A stretch of 64,000 nt of DNA, from NCBI RefSeq assembly GCF_963665995.1, contig NZ_OY762512.1, positions 4,464,001 through 4,528,000 of the forward strand, written 5' to 3'. The position numbers were made by a program, and so were the translations under genes. Below, piece by piece: positions 25,101 to 61,070 of this stretch (position 1 is its first letter; the number at the start of each line of letters is the position of its first letter). Origin of the DNA: Pleurocapsa sp. FMAR1. GTDB lineage: Bacteria > Cyanobacteriota > Cyanobacteriia > Cyanobacteriales > Xenococcaceae. The notes under the pieces are model-generated. The model saw nothing but the letters and a program-made list of their open reading frames with translations, was not told the DNA's origin and did no database searches.

Positions 25101-27278
25101 TTACTCTTTTAAGGATGAGCTTGTTTTAGCAGGGTTGTCTGGGGATTTGTAATTTAGCTTTAATTTATTGGCTAAAGCGTGATTTAATTTTTCAGATGCA
25201 CCAGGGTATTGTGCTTCTATCTGTAGCAATTTGCTATAAATTTTTACTGCGCCGTCCCAATTATCAACTAATTCTAACTGTTGACCTAAGCAAAAATAGG
25301 ACTCTGCATTGTTGGGGTTATTGCTAATTTCCAGCTTTAAAAAATCTATTGCCTCTTGATGTTTGCCCTGATTACTTAAAATTTCACTCAGGCGATAATA
25401 AGACTGAGAAAATAGAGGATTTAAGATGATCGCTTGATAATAAAAGCTTAGAGCCTGTTGTAATTGACCCTTATCTGCTAAGGCATTGGCCAAATGAAAG
25501 CGATCCATAGCTGTACCGATTTCTGGTTCAAGAGCCAAAGCCAACTGCATTTCTTGGATAAATTCTTGTTGCTTACCTATTTTAAATAAGGTTCTAGCTA
25601 GATTTAGATGAGCCTTAGAATACTGAGGATTAAGGTCTATAGCTTGACGATAACAGGCGATCGCATATTGCCACTTTCTTTTTCTGCCATACAGGTTTCC
25701 CAAATCAGTATGAACTTTGGGGGAGTTAGGTTGCAGCTTAGATTGCTTATAATAGCGTTCGATTGCCTTATCTAGCTGGGTTGTAGAAGTATTAGTTTTG
25801 GTTTCCTGATAATCATGCTTTAATTGTTTTGACCAACGGTCAGACCCGCTAAAGAGTTCAACAGTTCCTATAACGGGACGGGGTGGCTTATGAACTGCCG
25901 AACCTGCGTCGTCAGATAGCCCCTTGCAAACCCGCGCAACGGACTGTCTCGCAATGGGGGAAACCTCCACAACGCGCTGACTCGCAACGGACTCAGATGC
26001 GGACGAAGCGTCCTTTCTCACCGCGTCGTTGTACGGCGGAGTAATCTCTAACTCTTGCTGAGAAAGCTTTGGCTGACTTGGTTTTGGTTTCATAGCTGCT
26101 GGTAGTGCAGGTTGAGCCATGCTTAAGTCTAAAGCTTTTCGATAGTATAATGCTGACTGTTTCCATTGATTTTGCTGCTCTAATTTTTCAGCGAGGAGAC
26201 AGTATGTTTCTACTGAGGGTTTTGCATCAAATAAAGCCTTATCGTCTAAATCTGAACTAGCTGCTTGAGAAACTGTTTCTAATTCTCTTGCTCGATAAAG
26301 ATTTAACTGAGCTTTATCAGAGTTCCCCAACTGCTGCCAAACTTCAGCTAAGTTGCGATAGATGGTTGCACTAGGTCTAATGATGATAGCTTTTTGATAA
26401 TGTTTGACTGCCTGGTGCCATTTTTCTTGCTGAGTATAAATATCGGCAATTCCAGCATAAACTTCAGCTAGATTAGGTTCTATCTCTACCGCCTTGGCAT
26501 AGCATGACATCGCCTCCCCAGTTTTGCCCATTCTTTGTAAAGCATTGCCCCAAACTTTGTAAGCCTCTGCCATATTAGGCATAATTTGGACTGCTTGTTT
26601 ACAAGCTAGTGCTGAACCTTCCCATTCCTGCTTTTCTGAATGTTCTAATGCTTTTTGGAGATAAACCTGCGCTGTTTCCCAGTCAATGTCCCTAGATTGC
26701 TGTGGATTAATGGTTTTGAGAGGTTTTAAAAAAGAAGGAGATATATTATTACTTAGCTCAACTTCAACTTTAGAAAGAGGCGGTTGAGAGTCAGAAGTTT
26801 TGGTTAAGGCAGAATTGATCTTAGTTAGAGGCTGAAAAGAAAATGCTGTTTCTTTGAGAGTAGAAGTGGGAATAGGAGAGCTAGGAAGACTAGCTATGTT
26901 CGCTCTAAATAGCTGTTTTTTTGTATTCTCCGTCAAAGCTTTGAGATGAATAGCCTGACGATAGTAGTTAGCTGCTTGTTGGACGTTGCCATGATTTTTC
27001 AACCCTGTTGCTAGTTTTTCATAGGCAACTGCCAAATCTCCCTGTTGTTTTAAACGTTCTGCTAAACGTTGCTGAATCTCTATTAGATGAGGATATTGTT
27101 CTATTGCTAAACCGTAGATTGCTAAAGCTTCGCTTAATTTGCCTTGTTCCCAAAGAAGATCAGCCTGAGCAATTTGTGTTGACCATGAATCATTAACATT
27201 AAAGTCTGAAGAAACTGCTGAGTCAGATTGTTTTTTTCCAGTTTCAGATGGAAGCAGGTTTTGAAATAGCTTAAACAT
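25101..27278 (-). CDS. Large TPR-repeat protein with an embedded GC-rich repeat
   Basis: 725 residues from ATG 27278. Two TPR arrays are visible, about 35-120 and 200-390 and again 490-720, with repeats such as AEVYAGIADIYTQQEKWHQA and PQYSKAHLNLARTLFKIGK. They are interrupted by residues about 416-486, a low-complexity basic/serine segment containing SVASQRVV, encoded by a GC-rich repeat (25830-26042) related to one at 50476. TPR proteins scaffold protein complexes; no catalytic domain is seen. The reading frame survives the insertion, so the protein may still fold around an extra loop. Confidence 0.85.
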   Translation of the reverse strand: MFKLFQNLLPSETGKKQSDSAVSSDFNVNDSWSTQIAQADLLWEQGKLSEALAIYGLAIEQYPHLIEIQQRLAERLKQQGDLAVAYEKLATGLKNHGNVQQAANYYRQAIHLKALTENTKKQLFRANIASLPSSPIPTSTLKETAFSFQPLTKINSALTKTSDSQPPLSKVEVELSNNISPSFLKPLKTINPQQSRDIDWETAQVYLQKALEHSEKQEWEGSALACKQAVQIMPNMAEAYKVWGNALQRMGKTGEAMSCYAKAVEIEPNLAEVYAGIADIYTQQEKWHQAVKHYQKAIIIRPSATIYRNLAEVWQQLGNSDKAQLNLYRARELETVSQAASSDLDDKALFDAKPSVETYCLLAEKLEQQNQWKQSALYYRKALDLSMAQPALPAAMKPKPSQPKLSQQELEITPPYNDAVRKDASSASESVASQRVVEVSPIARQSVARVCKGLSDDAGSAVHKPPRPVIGTVELFSGSDRWSKQLKHDYQETKTNTSTTQLDKAIERYYKQSKLQPNSPKVHTDLGNLYGRKRKWQYAIACYRQAIDLNPQYSKAHLNLARTLFKIGKQQEFIQEMQLALALEPEIGTAMDRFHLANALADKGQLQQALSFYYQAIILNPLFSQSYYRLSEILSNQGKHQEAIDFLKLEISNNPNNAESYFCLGQQLELVDNWDGAVKIYSKLLQIEAQYPGASEKLNHALANKLKLNYKSPDNPAKTSSSLKE
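25830..26042. repeat. GC-rich dispersed repeat inside the TPR gene
   Basis: The tract begins with TGACCAACGGTCA, the reverse complement of the palindrome at 5345 and 41320, and contains a block (about 25950-25992) whose reverse complement matches 50567-50610 nearly base for base (AGTCCGTTGCGAGTCAGCGC and onward). GC content is clearly above the flanks. It is translated in-frame. Confidence 0.75.
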
Positions 27279-27736
27279 TAGCAAATTAAAATAGTATATA
27301 TAGTATATAAATATTTTTACTTAGATCAATTTGATGCTAAGGAAAACCTACCACTGCAAACAGCCTGTATTCCGAAGTCACAGATTACTTTTTTTTGACC
27401 ATCTCATATTTACAATAAAAAAAGATCAGTATTTATACATAGGTGTTTACTAAATTTTAAACCCATTATCAAAAAATTTACTTAATCTTTAATTTGTTAG
27501 GTATTTACATTTTATTTTTTTTAAGAAAAAATAGGCTTATATTTGTTAAATTCTGAGATTTGAGTGGGCGCAAGCACGAATTTATCTCGCGTTGATAACT
27601 GCCTAGTGTTTTTACACAAAAAAAGAGTGCCTTAACACTCAATATAAAATCTATATTTGCTTATTATTAAGCAAATATTGCTACGCATTTGGTCATTATT
27701 CCGCTAGATGAAACAACTGAACTTATTAAATTTAAG
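27279..27736. other. 458-base intergenic region with hairpins
   Basis: AT-rich. It contains the nrdB terminator (27618-27640) and a second perfect 10-bp stem TATTTGCTTA/TAAGCAAATA at 27654-27677, loop TTAT. Promoter elements for the TPR gene should lie at 27280-27450 but none is clear. Confidence 0.6.
27618..27640 (-). terminator. Rho-independent terminator of nrdB
   Basis: On the minus strand GAGTG (27640-27636), loop TTAAGG, CACTC (27629-27625), then seven T (27624-27618). It lies about 100 bases downstream of the nrdB stop. Confidence 0.75.
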
Positions 27737-35901: not shown

Positions 35902-36281
35902 TCAATTTAGGATATCAATGATTTTATTGGTTACTTTCTTCATCTTATTTACTTTTAATTGACCTGCTGTGTAGAGAACTATTGCTTTATCGGCTGTGAA
36001 CAATCGATTAGGGCGAATATTGCTATTAAGATTTAGTCCGCCACTAATAAAGTCGGCGTTAGTGACTGCAATAGCATAATTATCAGATTTAGCTTGACTG
36101 GTAATTTGACATAGAATTAAATCATCTCCTTGTAATTTAGCAGCAACTAAAGCTGGACGGCGTTTTGCTTGGCTCAGATCGGAGAAGCGGTCAGACCCCG
36201 CGTCGGCGAAAGACGCAAGGGAATGCTGACCAAGACAGGGAAGGGAACAATTACTACATCTCCCTTTACAAATGCTGCCAC
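35902..36281 (-). pseudogene. PemK/MazF-family toxin disrupted by a 50-bp repeat insertion
   Basis: The C-terminal part reads FSDLSQAKRRPALVAAKL and DDLILCQITSQAKS, typical of small MazF/PemK toxins. The matching N-terminus is in another frame: from GTG 36281 the sequence reads AAFVKGDVVIVPFP. The two halves join perfectly (VPFP|FSDLSQ) if 36187-36236 is removed, giving about 109 residues. The 50 bases removed are a copy of the GC-rich repeat and shift the frame. A frame from 36330 stays open through the insert but lacks the toxin N-terminus. The toxin is therefore probably dead. The old start overlaps the antitoxin end by 16 bases. Confidence 0.82.
36187..36236. repeat. GC-rich mobile-like repeat, 50-bp insertion in the toxin gene
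   Basis: Core 36189-36231 is bounded by short inverted ends GGTCAG...CTGACC and holds ACCCCGCGTCGGCG and GACGCAAGGGAATG. Related copies: 58078-58138 in the YraN gene and 54079-54126 (intergenic). The exact junctions are known because the interrupted toxin frame can be restored. Confidence 0.85.
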
Positions 36282-36529
36282 GCCTCATCCTCTTCTGGAG
36301 TTGACCAATCTTTGCTAAGTGCGGATTCACTCAGAGAGATAGTTTCTATTTTTTCATTTTGATTCGGGAGATCGGATAGTGTTGCTTCGGCAGCAATAAC
36401 AGATTCAACACCTTTCTGATTTATTAATTTGTGTTTGTATTTAAGATATTGAACAAAATTTAGCGCTTCTGGAATTAGTGATTCTGGGATGCTGTCAATT
36501 TCATTCAAAAGAGACTTTTTAGCATTCAT
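36266..36529 (-). CDS. Antitoxin of the PemK-type module (DUF2281-like)
   Basis: 87 residues: NEIDSIPESLIPEALNFVQYLKYK at the N-terminus is the pattern of DUF2281-type antitoxins, and the acidic C-terminus (STPEEDEAWQHL) would wrap the toxin. It precedes and overlaps the disrupted toxin. With the toxin broken, the antitoxin may survive as a relic or still act in trans on relatives. Confidence 0.8.
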   Translation of the reverse strand: MNAKKSLLNEIDSIPESLIPEALNFVQYLKYKHKLINQKGVESVIAAEATLSDLPNQNEKIETISLSESALSKDWSTPEEDEAWQHL

Positions 36530-41200: not shown

Positions 41201-41290
41201 AAGGCATTATCATATTATCCCTGCGGGATGCAACGCCAAATGAGTCAAACTTCAAAAGTGAAATTAACAACAAATACCTAGTCACAGATT

Positions 41291-41332
41291 ACTCCGCCCT
41301 AAACGGACGAAGCCTGCTGTGACCGTTGGTCA
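41291..41332. repeat. GC-rich patch with TGACCGTTGGTCA palindrome, copy 3
   Basis: Contains ACTCCGCC, GGACGAAGC (also at 26001) and the exact 13-base palindrome at 41320-41332. Member or fragment of the dispersed repeat family. Confidence 0.6.
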
Positions 41333-41402
41333 ATCTAATCAACTTAGGCTCTATTATTAATTGACTACGAAGAGTAAACTCCGTAGCCAAAACAATCTAT
41401 GA

Positions 41403-46660: not shown

Positions 46661-47568
46661 GTGCCTGGGAGTAGGGTAGGTCAGGAGTATTACTACTCCC
46701 TTCCCCCCGTAGAACCGAACGTACAGGTTTCCAAGTATTCGGCTCAAGCATTTACTACGATTTTGTTGTAATACTAATTGACTATACATAGCTCTTTTTT
46801 ATTTTCCTTTATTGTTAGGAGGTTTCTATATTCCATTTACTCCTTCAACCTTACTTCCAGGATATATATCAAGCTCTAAGTTACGTTTGGATTAAAAGGC
46901 AACCATCTAACTTTTCCTTAGATTTAATCTTTCGTATACTTCAAAATATAGTAGTTAACACCTGTGTTCACGTCAGCATCCTTTCAGATCGGGTATATAC
47001 CCTATTCACCGAGTTATTGATTCCTCTTATCTTTCGATATAGTGACATTAGCTTTTTGAAGGTGAGGGGTGGCTCTGTTTAAGAGCCATACCCAATCACC
47101 TTGTTGAACTATCCTACTCCCTCTCAAGAATTACACCTTCCTTACGGTTGGTTTACTCCGAAGAGACTTGATAGGGTTTTTCCTGTTCCGCATTTTTGAG
47201 ATACGACATATTTAGATTCCTGCTTTACTCCTATTAATCGATATTCGCGGTAGTCTATAATTTCCAAGTTCAGGGAAAATTATGTAAATTCAAATCAAAG
47301 GGTTGAATTTCTGAATATCTACACCCTAAACATCGTCATTGGGTGTTCTGTATTGTAGAAGCCTCATCACAGATTCACAAATGTTAATCATATATGTCTT
47401 ACCCTAGCCCATAAACCAATAGATGTTTTATTGATATTGGTACATTTAACCTTCTAGCTGTGAGACATTTCTGTTACCAGTAATGCCCCTTCAGGCGGGT
47501 ACAGCCTTGACTACTAGGCTGGAGTCTTTCTGAGGGACTCACTCTTAAATGCGACTTTCAGGTCGCAC
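46661..47568 (-). mobile_element. Group II intron without an encoded reverse transcriptase
   Basis: Read on the minus strand, the element starts GTGCGACCTGAAAGTCGC (47568 down), the conserved GUGYG 5' end with a TGCGAC/GTCGCA stem. Near the other end a domain V hairpin is readable at 46745-46711: GAGCCG...AAAC...CGTTCGGTTC with the catalytic AGC-like triad region. A domain VI-like hairpin with GGGAGTAG/CTACTCCC arms follows, and the 3' end is near 46661 (...GGCAC). At about 908 bases it has no room for, and shows no trace of, a maturase ORF in any frame. Exact 3' junction is approximate. It lies in the 5' leader of the NahK-like gene. Confidence 0.82.
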
Positions 47569-48768: not shown

Positions 48769-49751
48769 AGAATATGGAACTCGAAAATATCAAGATTGCA
48801 ATGTTAGGCACTAGTGGTGCAGGAAAAACCAGCTATTTGCTGGGAATGTATGCGGTAATGCAAACGGGAATTCAAGGATTTACCCTTGCAGCCCAAGACA
48901 TGGACTCAGATTTAGAACTAACCCAAAGATGGGAAAAATTAATTTCTCTTGAGGGAGAAGACCGTTGGCCCACACCTAATGCAGCGACCATAGAATACTA
49001 TAAGTTTGACTTTAGCTACGGCTATCGTCCTTTGATGGGATTTGAATGGCTAGATTATCGGGGTTTAGCATTAAGCGATCGCTCTACAGAGCAAGATGTA
49101 TCAGACTTGGTTCAGTATATAACTGAATCCGAGTGTTTATTTCTGTGCCTCTCAGGGGAACATCTAGTCAATGAAATTACTCCTAACACCGTGCGGGAAT
49201 TAAAAAGCGATCGCCTGAATCAGTTTATTCAGCAATATGTGAGCGTCAAAAAAAATCCTAGCCTCCAAAAACCTTTTCCGATAGCGATCATCATCACTAA
49301 ATACGATCTTTGCCATCATCGAGAAAGAGATGACATTATTAGCGACGTTAAAAAACTGTTCCAAGCACTATTTACTCCCAACTCAGGCTGGCTAGTTATG
49401 ATTTGCCCTGTAAGTTTGGGACGAGAATTGTGTGACGATCCCAATGGGGGAAAAATTATTCCTGTCAATGCTCATCTGCCAATTGTCTTTGCTATTTATG
49501 CCCAGCTAAGAGCTAATAATTTAAAGTTAAAAGCACAGCTAGAGCATCAAACTGTAGCTGTTAACGCCCTCAAGCAGACAAACCCGATTGTCCAGCTATT
49601 AAAAGCCTCAGAATTAGAAGAACAGACTACCCAACTGCAAACCTTTGAAAGCGAAATTATTGCTATTGAAGAGAATATGAAGCTTTTGTCTCAGGAATTA
49701 CAGCAGGCTTCTTTGTACTTTAACGGCAGCGAGGTAACAGCCGATGTCTAG
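48759..49751 (+). CDS. TRAFAC-type GTPase, second gene of the operon
   Basis: 330 residues. P-loop GTSGAGKT (17-24), DYRG (99-102) as the G3 motif after FEWL, and TKYD (180-183) as the G4 specificity motif, so GTP binding is likely. The C-terminal 80 residues are helical and probably coiled coil (KLKAQLEHQTVAVNALKQ). It resembles the double-GTPase-type proteins found in NTPase-centred conflict systems of cyanobacteria and actinobacteria. It overlaps the kinase gene by 10 bases and the next gene by 8. An alternative ATG lies at 48774. Confidence 0.85.
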   Translation: MVLENMELENIKIAMLGTSGAGKTSYLLGMYAVMQTGIQGFTLAAQDMDSDLELTQRWEKLISLEGEDRWPTPNAATIEYYKFDFSYGYRPLMGFEWLDYRGLALSDRSTEQDVSDLVQYITESECLFLCLSGEHLVNEITPNTVRELKSDRLNQFIQQYVSVKKNPSLQKPFPIAIIITKYDLCHHRERDDIISDVKKLFQALFTPNSGWLVMICPVSLGRELCDDPNGGKIIPVNAHLPIVFAIYAQLRANNLKLKAQLEHQTVAVNALKQTNPIVQLLKASELEEQTTQLQTFESEIIAIEENMKLLSQELQQASLYFNGSEVTADV

Positions 49752-50994
49752 ACAAAATTGGGCAGCAATTGTTTATGGACGTAGTTTTCATCTAGATTTT
49801 CGCTATATTACTGTTCCCCATGATTTTACCGACCAAGACATCACCTGGGCATCAGCCTATATCTTAGCCACAACTCATCAGGCTCGTAACCTTGCCAATC
49901 ACCCTCGTTGGTCATTATTCAAAAATAATTCTTACTGCATTGTTGGTGTTACCTGCATGGTAAGAGATTTGATGGAATTTGGACAAGATTCAGTCGAAGT
50001 GATGGCAAAAGATGACCAGGGTAGACCACTATATGTATTTGTTGGTTATGTTACTCCGTTGAGTAAGGGAAAAAATATCCTTAATTTTCCTGCCTATACA
50101 GAAAAACACCTGGGGGGTTTTAAACCTCTTTATCAACAAATGGAAAAGGTGTGGTTGGTTAAAGATTATGACCAGAAAAGTAGACAACCTCTGCTGAGTC
50201 AATATCAATCATTGAACTCTTCTGTAGAATTGATTCAGGTAGATACAAAAATTGATTCCATTCCCAGAATAAATAGTCTTCTAAAACAGCCTGACAAAAT
50301 ATATTCCTGGTGCAACTCAAACCAGCAAAATAATCAGCTATGGATGGCTGCTGCTAAATGTTCAGTTGAAACTTCTCTATGTTTAAACATCAAAGCAAAA
50401 GTTATTTCTAATAGTCCTTTTTTAAATCAGACTATCACTCAACTAGATGGTTTTACTATCAGCGATCGCTATCTTGATGCGCATTCCCTTGCGAGGCAGC
50501 GCGGTCTTGTTGGTTTCCGACAAAGAGCGACTGCCGAGGGCGCGCCTAACGGCGACGCGGTGAAGCAGTCCGTTGCGAGTCAGCGCGTTGTGGGGGTTCC
50601 CCCCATTGTAGCGACTGACGAGGGCGCGGAGGTTCCCTCCGTTGTAGGAACTGCTGAACCCTCTAGGGGGTCGCATCGCATTTCCACCCAAAAACTCCGT
50701 TTAGCTTCGACGCAAGCGAATCATCACAAGCAAACATTAAAGCCTAAACATCCTCAGACTCATCAGTCGTTGCCCCAGATAATTTCAACCAGGGCAAAAA
50801 AAGATTTTGACCTAACTTTAAAACAGGCTGCTAAAGTAACAACCGCAAGCCAGGAATTAATTAATAACTTTACCAATCAATTTGACCAACCCTCAGAGAT
50901 TATTCCCAAAATAGATAAATCTAGTGATATAGAGAATTTTGGCTTCAAAACTAAAATACACTCACCCACTACAGTTAAGAAAGATTGGTTTTAA
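49744..50994 (+). CDS. Unknown protein, third gene of the kinase-GTPase operon
   Basis: 416 residues. The first 210 look like a folded domain (AAIVYGRSFHLDFRYITVP, DITWASAYILATTHQARNLA, NNSYCIVGVTCMVRDLMEFG) with no motif I know. Residues about 245-315 are encoded by a GC-rich repeat (50476-50690) and include SVASQRVV, also found in the TPR protein at 432-439. The tail is polar. Strict overlap with the GTPase gene (8 bases) argues for a physical or functional complex. A GTPase-associated effector or GAP-like role is only a guess. Confidence 0.7.
   Translation: MSRQNWAAIVYGRSFHLDFRYITVPHDFTDQDITWASAYILATTHQARNLANHPRWSLFKNNSYCIVGVTCMVRDLMEFGQDSVEVMAKDDQGRPLYVFVGYVTPLSKGKNILNFPAYTEKHLGGFKPLYQQMEKVWLVKDYDQKSRQPLLSQYQSLNSSVELIQVDTKIDSIPRINSLLKQPDKIYSWCNSNQQNNQLWMAAAKCSVETSLCLNIKAKVISNSPFLNQTITQLDGFTISDRYLDAHSLARQRGLVGFRQRATAEGAPNGDAVKQSVASQRVVGVPPIVATDEGAEVPSVVGTAEPSRGSHRISTQKLRLASTQANHHKQTLKPKHPQTHQSLPQIISTRAKKDFDLTLKQAAKVTTASQELINNFTNQFDQPSEIIPKIDKSSDIENFGFKTKIHSPTTVKKDWF
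50476..50690. repeat. GC-rich dispersed repeat inside the third operon gene
   Basis: Shares with 25950-25992 (reverse complement) a near-identical block of about 43 bases at 50567-50610 and contains GCATTCCCTTGCG as in the toxin insertion at 36187. It is translated without a stop. Confidence 0.75.
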
Positions 50995-54010: not shown

Positions 54011-54078
54011 TTTTACTAATTACTTAATTACGGTATTTGAGTAGCAAGTGTACAGATATGTCGTACCAAGTTAAATTA

Positions 54079-54126
54079 GCGGTGCGACCCCGCGTCGCCG
54101 ACAGGCGCAAGGGAACGCTCGAATCA
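54079..54126. repeat. GC-rich dispersed repeat, intergenic copy
   Basis: Reads GCGGTGCGACCCCGCGTCG then CCGACAGGCGCAAGGGAACG, closely matching the toxin insertion at 36187-36236 with a few substitutions. It sits between converging genes. Confidence 0.8.
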
Positions 54127-54129
54127 GAG

Positions 54130-54181
54130 TAATGAGTAACGAGTTTTAAGAAATGTCTTAACGTTTACTCGTTACTCATTA
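54130..54181. repeat. 15-bp perfect inverted repeat from heptamer units
   Basis: TAATGAGTAACGAGT (54130-54144) and ACTCGTTACTCATTA (54167-54181) are exact reverse complements with a 22-base spacer. The arms are built of TACTCGT/TACTCAT-type units that reappear at 54291-54311. A hairpin or terminator is possible. Confidence 0.7.
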
Positions 54182-57744: not shown

Positions 57745-58275
57745 ATGAAAGAAATTGGAATATGGGGTGAAAAACTAGTCGGGCGATGGTTGCAGATTCA
57801 AGACTATGAGCTATTACAGCAGAATTGGCGTTGTCGCTGGGGAGAAATCGATTTGATTGCTCAAGAACGAGTAAGTAAGGCGATCGCTTTTGTGGAAGTA
57901 AAAACCCGCAGCAAAAACAACTGGGACGAAAACGGGTTACTAGCTATTGATTCTGCTAAACAAGAGAAAATTATCAAAACAGCATCTTTATTTTTAGCTA
58001 AATACCCTCAACTAGCAGAATTACCCTGTCGCTTTGACGTGGCTTTAGTTAGTTATCAGAAATGTCTCGCGCTAAGAGGTCAGACCCCGCGTCGCCGTCA
58101 GGCGCAAACGAAGGCTTTAGACGCACGTAATGCTGACCTAGCCGAAGGCGCAAAGGAAAGAAAAAAGATAGATGTAAAAGAAATTGCTCGACTAACTATA
58201 GGTCAAGCAGTAGATATTGAGCAATGGCAGGTAACTATTGAAAATTATTTACAGTCTGCTTTTGATTTGTCTTAA
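57745..58275 (+). CDS. YraN-family (UPF0102) endonuclease-like protein with an inserted repeat
   Basis: 176 residues. The conserved YraN core is present: LVGRWLQIQDYELLQQNWR, GEIDLIA and AFVEVKTRS, a Holliday-junction-resolvase-like fold, and the end IGQAVDIEQWQVTIENYLQS. Residues about 108-139 (ALRGQTPRRRQAQTKA and onward) are not expected in the family and are encoded by a GC-rich repeat (58078-58138). Without it the protein would be about 145 residues, the normal range. Confidence 0.85.
   Translation: MKEIGIWGEKLVGRWLQIQDYELLQQNWRCRWGEIDLIAQERVSKAIAFVEVKTRSKNNWDENGLLAIDSAKQEKIIKTASLFLAKYPQLAELPCRFDVALVSYQKCLALRGQTPRRRQAQTKALDARNADLAEGAKERKKIDVKEIARLTIGQAVDIEQWQVTIENYLQSAFDLS
58078..58138. 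repeat. GC-rich dispersed repeat inside the YraN gene
   Basis: Bounded by GGTCAG and CTGACC, as in the toxin insertion at 36189-36231, with the same ACCCCGCGTCGCCGTCAGGC interior and an extra segment of about 18 bases. Translated in-frame. Confidence 0.85.
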
Positions 58276-58636: not shown

Positions 58637-58802
58637 AACTTCCCTATTCTTAAAATAAGAGAATGAAACAGCCCCGCCTTACCTTTGCAGGAGGGCTTGC
58701 CACGCCCGAAAAAAAGTTTATATCGCCCTTCAAACTGCTGTGGTATTTTAGTGGCAGTATTCTTTCACTCCTAGATAAGCTTGATTAAGCATGGCTTTTT
58801 AG

Positions 58803-61070
58803 TTAACCTAAGCCTGAGAGTCACCTCTCAGACTCGGCTTCAAAACCGTGCGTGTTCCTTTCAAATCACACGGCTCCTCAATTGCTTGATGCTTGTCATG
58901 CAGACCTCTACTTCTATGGGCATTGTCATGGCAATGTCCATGAATTAACCGAAGATTTGTTTTGTCGTTGTTATCATGGTTTTTATCCGCATGATGTACC
59001 TCCAAAACTTCACCAGGCATAAAATAGTTTAAACATTGAGAACATTTTCCTTTCTGGATTTTCAGTAGCATTGCTACTTTATTTCTAACCATTGGGTGTT
59101 TTCCCATGCGTTGTGACCAGTATAGATAGTCTCCGTCGTATGGACTTTTGTCTCCTCGAACTTTTACATGATTTTTGATTTTGAGGTCACTATGGCGATA
59201 CAAAAAATAACCATCGGAGTCCATAAATCTCCAATTATCATTTCCATGTCGTTTAAAGTATTTACTCTTAATCCACGTTAGTCCTTTATGAGCATGACGA
59301 AACTTTGCCCATTGCCATAGTTTTTGGTGAGTCTGATGGGCTGCTTTTGCAAAGACTTTTCGGGAAATAGCGGTACAGAAGTATTGACTCCAACCTCGAA
59401 TGATTGGATTCAATTTTGATATTACTGCTGCTTGATTCGCTCCTCGCAATTTCCGCAAGCTTTCCTTAATGACTTTGAGATGTTTTTTCAAAGAATTGGA
59501 ACTTGGTTTAATCAGGGTTTTGAAGCCTATTCGACTTTTTCCACAGTTATGTAGGCTGACATTTTGTTGACGTACATTAAACCCTAGAAAATCAAATCCA
59601 GGTTTGTCTCCATCAGATGTATGACAAATTCTAGTTTTGGAGTCTTTGAGTTCCAATCCTATATTTTGTAACCAGTGTTCGATGTATTCCTTACTTCTTT
59701 CGACAATATGTTTGTCCTCGTGTAATACAACAAAATCATCGGCATACCTGATGATGCTCATATTGGAAAGGAGAACTTTACGACTACTTGGATAATCTTT
59801 TGTTTTCTTCCAATGAGCTTTTAGCAGAGGTAACATAGCTTCCTTGGTATCTGTTTCCAGACCGTGAAGGGCTATGTTTGCCAATAATGGCGATATTACC
59901 CCGCCTTGTGGTGTTCCTGATTCAGTGTTGTAAAAGGCATTTTTATCGATTACTCCTGCTTTCAGCCAATTCCGTATTAATCTACGAAATGTTGGAAAGG
60001 TCTGAAGTTTTTCCAGTAGGGCATTGTGATTGATATTATCAAAGCATCCTGAGATATCTGCATCCAGAACATATGCTCTTTTCCTGCAAATAGCTTTAAA
60101 GATTGCTTCGATTGCATCGTGACAACTTCTTCCTGGTCTAAATCCGTAGGAATTTCCTTCAAATTTTGCTTCCCATTCAGGCTCAAAAGCCATTTTACCT
60201 AGAGCTTGTACAACTCTATCTGCAATTGTTGGTATACCCAGCGGACGTTTTTCCTTCTTTCCTGGTTTGGGAATCCAAACCCTTCTAGTTGGTTGTGGCT
60301 TCTTAGTTATATTTAGCTCTTGGGCTAGTTTTAATCTATCCTTTGGTTCAATGGCAACTTTGCCATCAATACCTGGGGTTTTTTTGCCACGATTGTCTTG
60401 GGTTACTCTTCTAATTGCCAGTAGTTTGGCACTATGGGATTTGAGTACTAGTCTTTGTAGTCTATGTACGAGTTGATTCTCACCATTTAAAGAGGCTTGA
60501 TAGATTCGTTTTTGCAGCTTAAAAACTGTTTTCTCTAGCTTTCGCCAGGGAATAGTTTCCCATTCATACCTAAGCATTGCTTGGTTCATAACTTATTGAC
60601 TGCTAATTACAACTCTATCTTTCAAATAACCGTACCTCTGTCTGCATATCCTTGACATTACTTAAGGCATTGGCTTCTGAGGTAATCCTGCTTCCTAGTA
60701 GCATACGGTTGACTCCCTACTTAGAAAATTTCTAAGAGCATACTAAGAAGTTACTCCGTTCCAGATTATCGTTTTACGCTGGACTTAGACTCCTACTTTC
60801 CACCGAGGCTAATTGTGTGACATCGATACCAACCCATTCAAATTGATATCTTACATTTCACCTAATACCATTTTGGTACAGGGCGAATGCCCAGATCGTC
60901 GTCTTACGACGACTGGCGACGCTACCGCGTCGCGTGTGTGTCATCCCATTTTCACTACGTCGAAATAACGATGGGTCAGATGTAGGTTTCTCGCGTAGTC
61001 ATATCCAGCTATGCTTGGCGGGGTTCTAATTAGGGCTATCAGTTACCGCCTTTTATCCCATGCTGTACAC
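58803..61070 (-). mobile_element. Group II intron with reverse transcriptase (CL-like)
   Basis: Minus strand. The 3' part has domain V at 58876-58841 (GAGCCGTGTG...GAAA...CGCACGGTTTT) and a domain VI hairpin with CTGAGAG/CTCTCAG arms just before 58803. Domain IV holds the reverse transcriptase gene. Upstream of it, 60600-61070 is structured non-coding sequence (domains I-III). The 5' end is tentatively GTGTACAGC at 61070, about 100 bases after the SSB-like gene stop. Boundaries are approximate. GC-rich stem elements at 60886-60953 may be later insertions or ribozyme stems. Confidence 0.78.
58808..60589 (-). CDS. ltrA: Group II intron reverse transcriptase/maturase with HNH endonuclease
   Basis: 593 residues. 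RT domain: LAIRRVTQDNRGKKTPGIDG (about 57-76), FRPGRSCHDAI, SGTPQGGVISPLL and active site YADD (282-285), all consistent with an active enzyme. Then the X/maturase domain (about 370-470), and a C-terminal HNH endonuclease with CSQC, LEVHHADKNHDN and LIHGHCHDNAH. This is the CL-type arrangement, allowing splicing and retrohoming into a cleaved site. The ORF runs on into domain V and domain VI, so the last 30 residues are ribozyme-encoded. The gene symbol follows the general name of the family. Confidence 0.93.
   Translation of the reverse strand: MNQAMLRYEWETIPWRKLEKTVFKLQKRIYQASLNGENQLVHRLQRLVLKSHSAKLLAIRRVTQDNRGKKTPGIDGKVAIEPKDRLKLAQELNITKKPQPTRRVWIPKPGKKEKRPLGIPTIADRVVQALGKMAFEPEWEAKFEGNSYGFRPGRSCHDAIEAIFKAICRKRAYVLDADISGCFDNINHNALLEKLQTFPTFRRLIRNWLKAGVIDKNAFYNTESGTPQGGVISPLLANIALHGLETDTKEAMLPLLKAHWKKTKDYPSSRKVLLSNMSIIRYADDFVVLHEDKHIVERSKEYIEHWLQNIGLELKDSKTRICHTSDGDKPGFDFLGFNVRQQNVSLHNCGKSRIGFKTLIKPSSNSLKKHLKVIKESLRKLRGANQAAVISKLNPIIRGWSQYFCTAISRKVFAKAAHQTHQKLWQWAKFRHAHKGLTWIKSKYFKRHGNDNWRFMDSDGYFLYRHSDLKIKNHVKVRGDKSPYDGDYLYWSQRMGKHPMVRNKVAMLLKIQKGKCSQCLNYFMPGEVLEVHHADKNHDNNDKTNLRLIHGHCHDNAHRSRGLHDKHQAIEEPCDLKGTRTVLKPSLRGDSQA

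Follow-up and report, generated by a model that had tools for sequence, protein, structure and literature searches.

The peptide SVASQRVV, which is common to two otherwise unalike proteins of Pleurocapsa sp. FMAR1, is very probably the accidental translation product of a small mobile hairpin repeat. Both copies lie within a 64,000-nt stretch of contig NZ_OY762512.1, hereafter the window, in the following features:

25101-27284, minus strand: gene of a TPR-repeat protein of 727 aa, which carries the first insert (ORF; Pfam TPR on both sides; orthologues)
49744-50994, plus strand: gene of the third protein of a kinase-GTPase operon (416 aa), in which the second insert lies (ORF; orthologues)
25968-25991, minus strand: SVASQRVV codons, residues 432-439 of the TPR protein (frame reading)
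50569-50592, plus strand: SVASQRVV codons, residues 276-283 of the third protein (frame reading)
25952-25993, minus strand: 42-bp shared block in the TPR gene (sequence match)

The first insert sits in a linker between two TPR blocks, each recognized by Pfam, and the third protein returned no match in a Pfam search. The original prediction held that both proteins carry the peptide at these residues, that the DNA blocks are near-identical after reverse complementation, that both insertions keep the reading frame and that the proteins share nothing else. All of this was borne out: positions 50567-50608 (plus strand) and 25993-25952 (minus strand) are identical at 40 of 42 bp (E ~5e-14 within the window), both host reading frames are open throughout, and no further similarity between the proteins was found. 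The genome-wide search proposed along with the prediction placed the full 42-nt block, at an identity of at least 95%, at only two positions in the 5.43-Mb genome (40 candidates scored; 59 found initially). Part of a 60-nt query matched 43 genome places at E<=10, with 90% identity over 40 nt in the best of them after the two full copies, which indicates that the block is a piece of a modular repeat. It consists of 9 nt of a host hairpin (AGTCCGTTG) and the first 33 nt of a hairpin of the family termed E2; in the TPR gene, the E2 hairpin holding the block is interrupted by a further E2-like module. Thus the block is repeat DNA, as proposed, but it is only one fragment of longer composite inserts (~25830-26053 and 50470-50679) and not the repeat unit itself.

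Modules were sought in 80 evenly spaced 20-kb stretches, through over-represented words and matches to the inserts. L numbers denote sampled stretches or loci, G000 is this genome and other G numbers are compared genomes. Both inserts turned out to be mosaics of small GC-rich hairpins, with the following parts:

25830-26053, minus strand: composite insert in the TPR gene, edges approximate (outermost module E4; residues absent from congeners)
41280-41333, plus strand: compact intergenic E4 copy, of the type of the outer module of the TPR insert (sample search)
50470-50679, plus strand: composite insert of 210 nt, or 70 codons, an E1 with nested hairpins (module matches; absent from 11/11 congeners)
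50492-50542, plus strand: E2a, 51 nt, preceded by CCCTTG in the left arm of E1 (E1 copies without interruption match the joined flanks)
50561-50666, plus strand: E2b, a host hairpin nested in E1 and split by E2c into the pieces 50561-50575 and 50627-50666 (matches to uninterrupted copies)
50576-50626, plus strand: E2c, 51 nt, the SVASQRVV hairpin, inserted after the TTG of E2b (E2 comparison)

The second insert is composed of E1 (53 nt, with two extra G), E2a (51 nt), E2b with a tail (55 nt) and E2c (51 nt). E1 holds E2a and E2b, and E2b in turn holds E2c. When the flanks were joined without the inner pieces and compared with the 80-stretch sample, the window and 80 named-genome loci, the E2a site had 100 matching pieces, the E2b site 20 (this insert has two extra G there) and E1 in full 12; uninterrupted matches to the E2b host number only six, 71-85% identical among the five listed. 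The E1 and E2a part recurs in a GH15-type gene (L122:6007-6104, 97% identity over 98 nt). The predicted RNA fold of 50472-50681 reaches -104.8 kcal/mol (z -4.2). In the TPR insert, E4 ends in AGATTACTCCGCC and CGTTGGTCA on the gene strand and encloses other hairpin modules, in a nest more broken than that of the third-protein insert; taken whole, the insert has a fold no more stable than that of shuffles (z -0.62). Other copies of E4 are found in L097, L105 and L121 and at 41280-41333 of the window. Accordingly, the inserts are repeat-encoded, frame-keeping and absent from orthologues as predicted, but each is a nest of several different hairpin modules instead of a single element.

E1 forms a sizeable repeat family, with a length of 48-51 nt where it was measured in genes. 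An E1 model (R1) gave 137 matches at E<=0.01 in G000, from 150 scored of 1149 candidates, the weakest being partial or variant. The locus L157, which lies wholly inside the window, was left out of the counts of E1, E2, nesting and frames and kept in that of islands. Three further copies in the window are of note:

36184-36238, minus strand: un-nested E1 covering N-terminal codons of a PemK/MazF-family ORF (35902-36288), the start codon of which is uncertain (E1 match; Pfam)
54076-54130, minus strand: intergenic E1, the two outer arms of which are of different arm types (arm comparison)
58078-58107, minus strand: partial E1 in frame in a UPF0102 gene (57745-58275, plus strand), close to its 3' end and beyond the Pfam domain (E1 match)

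Structural comparison was based on 30 distinct un-nested E1 copies, cut with fixed flanks around a core that has the same 30-nt length in 29 of them. In total, 92.5% of the cells are paired, compared to 82.8% in shuffles that ignore the relatedness of the copies, and 46 cells are changed on both sides, compared to 17.1. Neither the pairs with a double change (6 versus 5.2 shuffled) nor the extra pair types (15 versus 15.5) are in excess. The inner stem shows no covariation and hardly any variation. The outer arms of E1 covary: 89 of 102 cells are paired in this genome against 63.9 in shuffles (17 distinct arm pairs), and 111 of 120 in the named-genome loci against 77.2 (20 arm pairs).

Across the order, E1 was detected in 32 of 195 genomes and 18 of 94 genera at E<=1e-8, with at most 29 candidates scored per genome. 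The exact core pattern occurs in 94 stretches of a genome contig collection; the 80 listed include Okeania, Hydrocoleum, Spirulina, Lyngbya, Xenococcus, Pleurocapsa, Hyella, Myxosarcina, strain ESFC-1 and others, as well as one stretch in a possibly contaminated metagenome-assembled genome (MAG) labelled Chloroflexaceae. E1 is also found on a plasmid of Chondrocystis sp. NIES-4102, which a second query matched only at this copy. A viral origin of E1 was rejected, as the exact core pattern was found in 0 stretches of IMG/VR. Two group II introns (46671-46747 and 58775-58878, both on the minus strand) are the only Rfam matches of the window at the gathering threshold.

The E2 family is represented in this genome by nine well delimited copies, six of 51 nt, two of 52 nt and one of 62 nt; no well delimited copy was found in the named-genome loci. 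TTG precedes eight of the nine, and it stands before the same first seven bases at 74 of 1511 sites in the sample, E2 copies included. In a wider set, 13 of 19 copies, some of them overlapping, follow TTGC; as this set was filtered for pairing and folding, it gives no covariation evidence.

These repeats largely avoid genes, given that ~80% of the sample was called coding: only 10 of the 87 repeat islands in the 80 stretches lie inside ORFs predicted with a simple gene caller, 17 run across an ORF end and 60 are outside. With the window added, 14 of 93 islands are in ORFs (13 distinct, the TPR island being counted twice), 17 across an end and 62 outside. Besides the TPR protein and the third protein of the kinase-GTPase operon, the genes hit encode a ChlH-like chelatase subunit, CobN, a PabB/TrpE-type, a GH15-type and a LytR-type protein, a PKS, a Uma2 protein, an ISL3 transposase, UPF0102 and PemK-family proteins and one protein fragment without a Pfam match. 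The PemK and UPF0102 cases are weaker, owing to the uncertain start codon and the C-terminal position, respectively. When a coding signal is required on both sides, ORFs contain 8 of the 79 distinct E1 copies from the named genomes; the six scanned (all but L234 and L271) include a ChlH-like gene, a PKS, a Uma2 gene and an OprB porin. The Uma2-family genes L116:7552-8229 (minus strand, from this genome) and L257:3839-4519 (plus strand, from a Myxosarcina MAG) have E1 at apparently the same protein position, which points to an old common insertion or to a hotspot. In the PKS gene that has an E1-type insert, a second palindrome, of the simple GTAG kind, is also in frame (L123:16146-16173).

The ChlH-like query aligns with the chain of a solved ChlH structure up to residue 287 and again from residue 288, and the insert is located within query residues 235-277, which have no match in that structure. 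The PabB insert is absent from 12/12 congener loci, all of which are present in the alignment, including three (L195, L198 and L199) that a loop pattern had missed. For CobN, inspection of 13 loci from 12 congeners revealed E1 in none, L361-L363 being cut near the loop. The GH15-type gene was found in 0/12 congeners at E<=1e-60 and was compared with its paralogue L204 only.

In several relatives, the loops of the ChlH-like and CobN genes hold in-frame palindromes of a further kind, the GTAG-REPs of 28 nt. The sample from this genome has three copies of the exact REP that encloses an E1, each in a gene (ChlH-like, PabB or CobN), and the borders of the composite are identical in all three; the piece within the REP measures 51, 51 and 102 nt, the longest holding a second hairpin. 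A scan for the simple GTAG palindrome found 10 in 1.644 Mb, three of them in ORFs, and two of these three are probably due to chance. Among 21 ChlH-like loops, seven have a simple intact GTAG palindrome, three a nested and three a degenerate one, two another palindrome, one an AT-rich hairpin and five none (G008, G014, G015, G209 and G161). The loops L336 and L222 share their sequence, and L340 and L345, which escaped the loop pattern, are outside the 21. In six distinct palindromes chosen as intact, five of them from congeners and one from another genus, 98.6% of the stem cells pair, and double changes affect 15 cells, compared to 4.6 in shuffles; L337 (G016), which repeats the 28 nt of G007, was left out of this set. 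In CobN, GTAG palindromes are present in L353 and L354, interrupted in L355 and degenerate in L351 and L359, and L356-L358 contain neither a palindrome nor a tandem repeat. Short tandem repeats occupy the CobN loops L352, L360, L361 and L363 and the ChlH-like loop L179 of other species; repeats of several kinds are thus accepted at these sites.

The palindromes of the ChlH-like and CobN loops bear on whether in-gene hairpins are kept for a function of their own, for example as RNA or DNA signals in pausing, RNA stability or protein binding, with the peptide as the price. Their presence in the same ChlH-like loop of several relatives with co-changing arms (15 versus 4.6), and in similar loops of CobN, is what such a function would leave. 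However, 5 of 21 ChlH-like loops and CobN L356-L358 have no palindrome, the six rows were picked for being intact, and repeated re-insertion of other REPs, or conversion by them, would change the arms as well. We therefore consider a retained function unlikely. A more tentative thought, which we find possible though doubtful, is that conserved genes act as hairpin nurseries, where a loop palindrome is kept in shape while its sequence and peptide turn over, and serves as a landing site for nesting, frame-neutral cassettes of 17 codons. Loops of proteins would then lengthen by 17 codons at a time, through a process that reads the shape of the DNA or RNA and not the sequence or the peptide.

Insertion sites with an empty counterpart were found in two cases. 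In the ChlH-like gene, 102 nt (E1 plus an inner hairpin) lie inside a REP that occurs without them in G006. The filled and empty sites are identical from GGGCGTTTCGCGAAA to CTACCAGT on the two sides, and the outer 5' REP arm and the preceding loop differ between the two genomes. In the ISL3 transposase gene, which is open over its full length here, 48 nt of E1 are absent from the copy on the Stanieria plasmid pSTA7437.01; the two copies are ~87% identical over the matched parts, and ~15 nt just past the site match poorly. Both empty sites (n = 2) are near-clean, and a target duplication over 2-3 nt was found at neither. On both sides of the GH15 insert (L122:6007-6123) lie the copies of an 8-nt direct repeat, CGCTATCT, a possible target duplication. 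The empty sites also weigh on the proposal that not insertion but gene conversion, or recombination between palindromes, spread the blocks. The arms of two types in the E1 at 54076-54130 suggest recombination between elements, and the composite of REP and E1 with equal borders in three genes would suit such an exchange. Yet the empty sites and the nested filled and empty pairs need insertion at some step, and the compared copy of the ISL3 site has no resident REP, which makes spread by conversion quite unlikely.

The lengths and frames of the inserts agree with the accidental translation of hairpins. Outside the window, the gene insertions measure 48, 51, 51 and 102 nt, all divisible by three, the 48 and 102 nt against a homologous or orthologous gene and both 51 nt against the REP that they split. 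Together with the open frames, this implies that the copies add codons and not breaks; as in-gene copies were found through their open frame, gene-breaking insertions fall outside the count. The inserts would be translated along with their hosts. Some intron-like or bypass hairpins are spliced out or skipped by the ribosome, and the very stable mid-ORF hairpin (-104.8 kcal/mol) and the group II intron matches in the window could suggest that these inserts, too, are missing from the mature protein. Nevertheless, a skipped insert needs neither a length divisible by three nor an open frame, an argument tempered by the use of the open frame as a search criterion, and we regard splicing or bypass as very improbable. 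The in-ORF E1 copies are read in five of the six frames: +0 (five copies), +1 (two), -0 (two), -1 (four) and -2 (five). The tally of 18 comprises 10 copies here and eight in named genomes, including two from Okeania (L271 and L287) that seem related. Of the six frames, three to six are open in each of seven example units. The use of five frames suggests that the shared peptide is probably incidental and not selected.

Orthologues of the two host genes were aligned as proposed with the original prediction, under which the same residues in the orthologues of many species would have spoken against a repeat. Because TPR repeats are common, the TPR query matches 30/30 genomes, so the best match of each of 12 congeners was aligned; the insert residues are absent from 12/12. 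The third protein was matched in 18/30 genomes, its own included, and its insert is absent from 11/11 same-genus genomes with a full-length orthologue. The twelfth congener, G001, has only the first 44 residues of this protein and is outside that count. The linkers holding both inserts vary in length among orthologues anyway, and the TPR orthologue of G010 (728 aa) has a linker of about equal length and unrelated sequence, so length alone is no marker of the insert there. The E1 model matched 0 of 46 congener loci, which is uninformative for the TPR insert, as it is not an E1. An ordinary shared domain or paralogy, which the same peptide in two proteins might suggest, is virtually out of the question, since the proteins are otherwise unalike, the orthologues have no such residues and E1 is read in five frames.

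Based on these comparisons, we propose that the genome harbors several short GC-rich hairpin families (E1 of ~51 nt, E2 mostly of 51-52 nt, GTAG-REPs of 28 nt, E4 and others), whose copies would enter one another and, occasionally, genes, with no obvious target duplication at the two comparable sites. A copy landing in a loop or linker would add codons and leave the gene unbroken, and selection would leave such copies in place. The elements would be mobile in the strict sense, and their copying would pass through a single-stranded hairpin, which may be of RNA or of ssDNA that an HUH/Y1 transposase cuts. A single-strand mechanism of the HUH/Y1 type, as in IS200/IS605, would suit both the constant TTG and the absence of a clear duplication at two sites. 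RNA is a possible intermediate as well; the window has group II intron matches. None of the seven Y1_Tnp matches in the genome has E1 or E2 as its ends, and E1 lies within 1.5 kb at 2/7 of these loci, which are too few to mean much. A RAYT-like Y1 protein with the motifs DHLH and YIHYNP (L210, G000:C1:2994945-2995313) is flanked by GTGGGCA...TGCCCAC hairpins, which are a separate REP type.

The small dispersed repeats (SDRs) of Nostoc and relatives that Elhai et al. are said to have described in 2008 are reportedly hairpins of 21-27 nt with compensatory arm changes, inserted into one another. In-frame coding copies are, to our knowledge, not among their features. The present elements are likewise very small cyanobacterial hairpins with nested insertions and a fixed short insertion site, and compensatory changes are seen in the outer arms of E1, although not in its nearly invariant inner stem. 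They differ in size, E1 being 51 nt (48 nt in one gene) and E2 51-52 nt, with one of 62 nt, compared to 21-27 nt. According to the available text of PMC4390886, SDR5 inserts at a fixed short site, HIP1, whereas E2 follows TTG; this likeness is one of description. The SDRs of Elhai et al. 2008 are cited in the available parts of PMC4390886 and PMC3116915.

The nearest described relatives are probably these cyanobacterial SDRs and the GTAG-REPs (PMC3733652). The resident palindromes of the ChlH-like and CobN loops carry the GTAG tag at one end and are within 20-40 nt, whereas E1, E2 and E4, upon inspection, have no such tag. The accessible text of PMC3733652 describes REPs in ORFs of other bacteria that encode 20-30 residues, or 43-82 in clusters, and REPs at about the same recB site in two Xanthomonas species; its section on cyanobacterial REPs, as far as available, names no intragenic case. 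The single-stranded hairpin mobility of RAYT/TnpA-Y1 and REPIN systems, as given in parts of PMC6006769 and PMC3116915, fits short hairpins without target duplication, whereas RAYT-driven REPINs differ in that 0/7 Y1 loci here are flanked by E1 or E2. With regard to MITEs, which have terminal inverted repeats and a target-site duplication, no duplication over 2-3 nt was seen at the ChlH-like and ISL3 sites, and an 8-nt repeat flanks the GH15 insert.

The original prediction likened the inserts to Rickettsia palindromic elements (RPEs). In the available portion of PMC2229807, these are single units of 105-146 bp that lie in frame in unrelated conserved genes and also between genes. The likeness holds for the way of working, a palindromic repeat inserted in frame in unrelated genes, but not for the build: the cyanobacterial units are ~51 nt, nested and read in five frames, a comparison made by description. 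Coding palindromes, both arms of which encode conserved protein, are described from mitochondria of Nematomorpha in part of PMC6649704; those are similarly kept inside genes, whereas the present ones are in variable loops.

By titles and the beginnings of abstracts, in a literature that mostly leaves subscription journals uncovered, no report of in-frame nested hairpins in cyanobacterial genes was found. What is new here are tiny nested units of ~51 nt, the history of which can be read in conserved genes with empty counterparts, so that it becomes testable how very small elements move and how often they yield protein loops; the wide but patchy distribution of E1 among relatives (32/195 genomes) puts such comparisons at hand. 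Altogether, coding palindromes, so far described from Rickettsia and some other bacteria, are extended to cyanobacteria by hairpins that agree in full with no single family definition and work like RPEs and intragenic REPs with SDR-like nesting.
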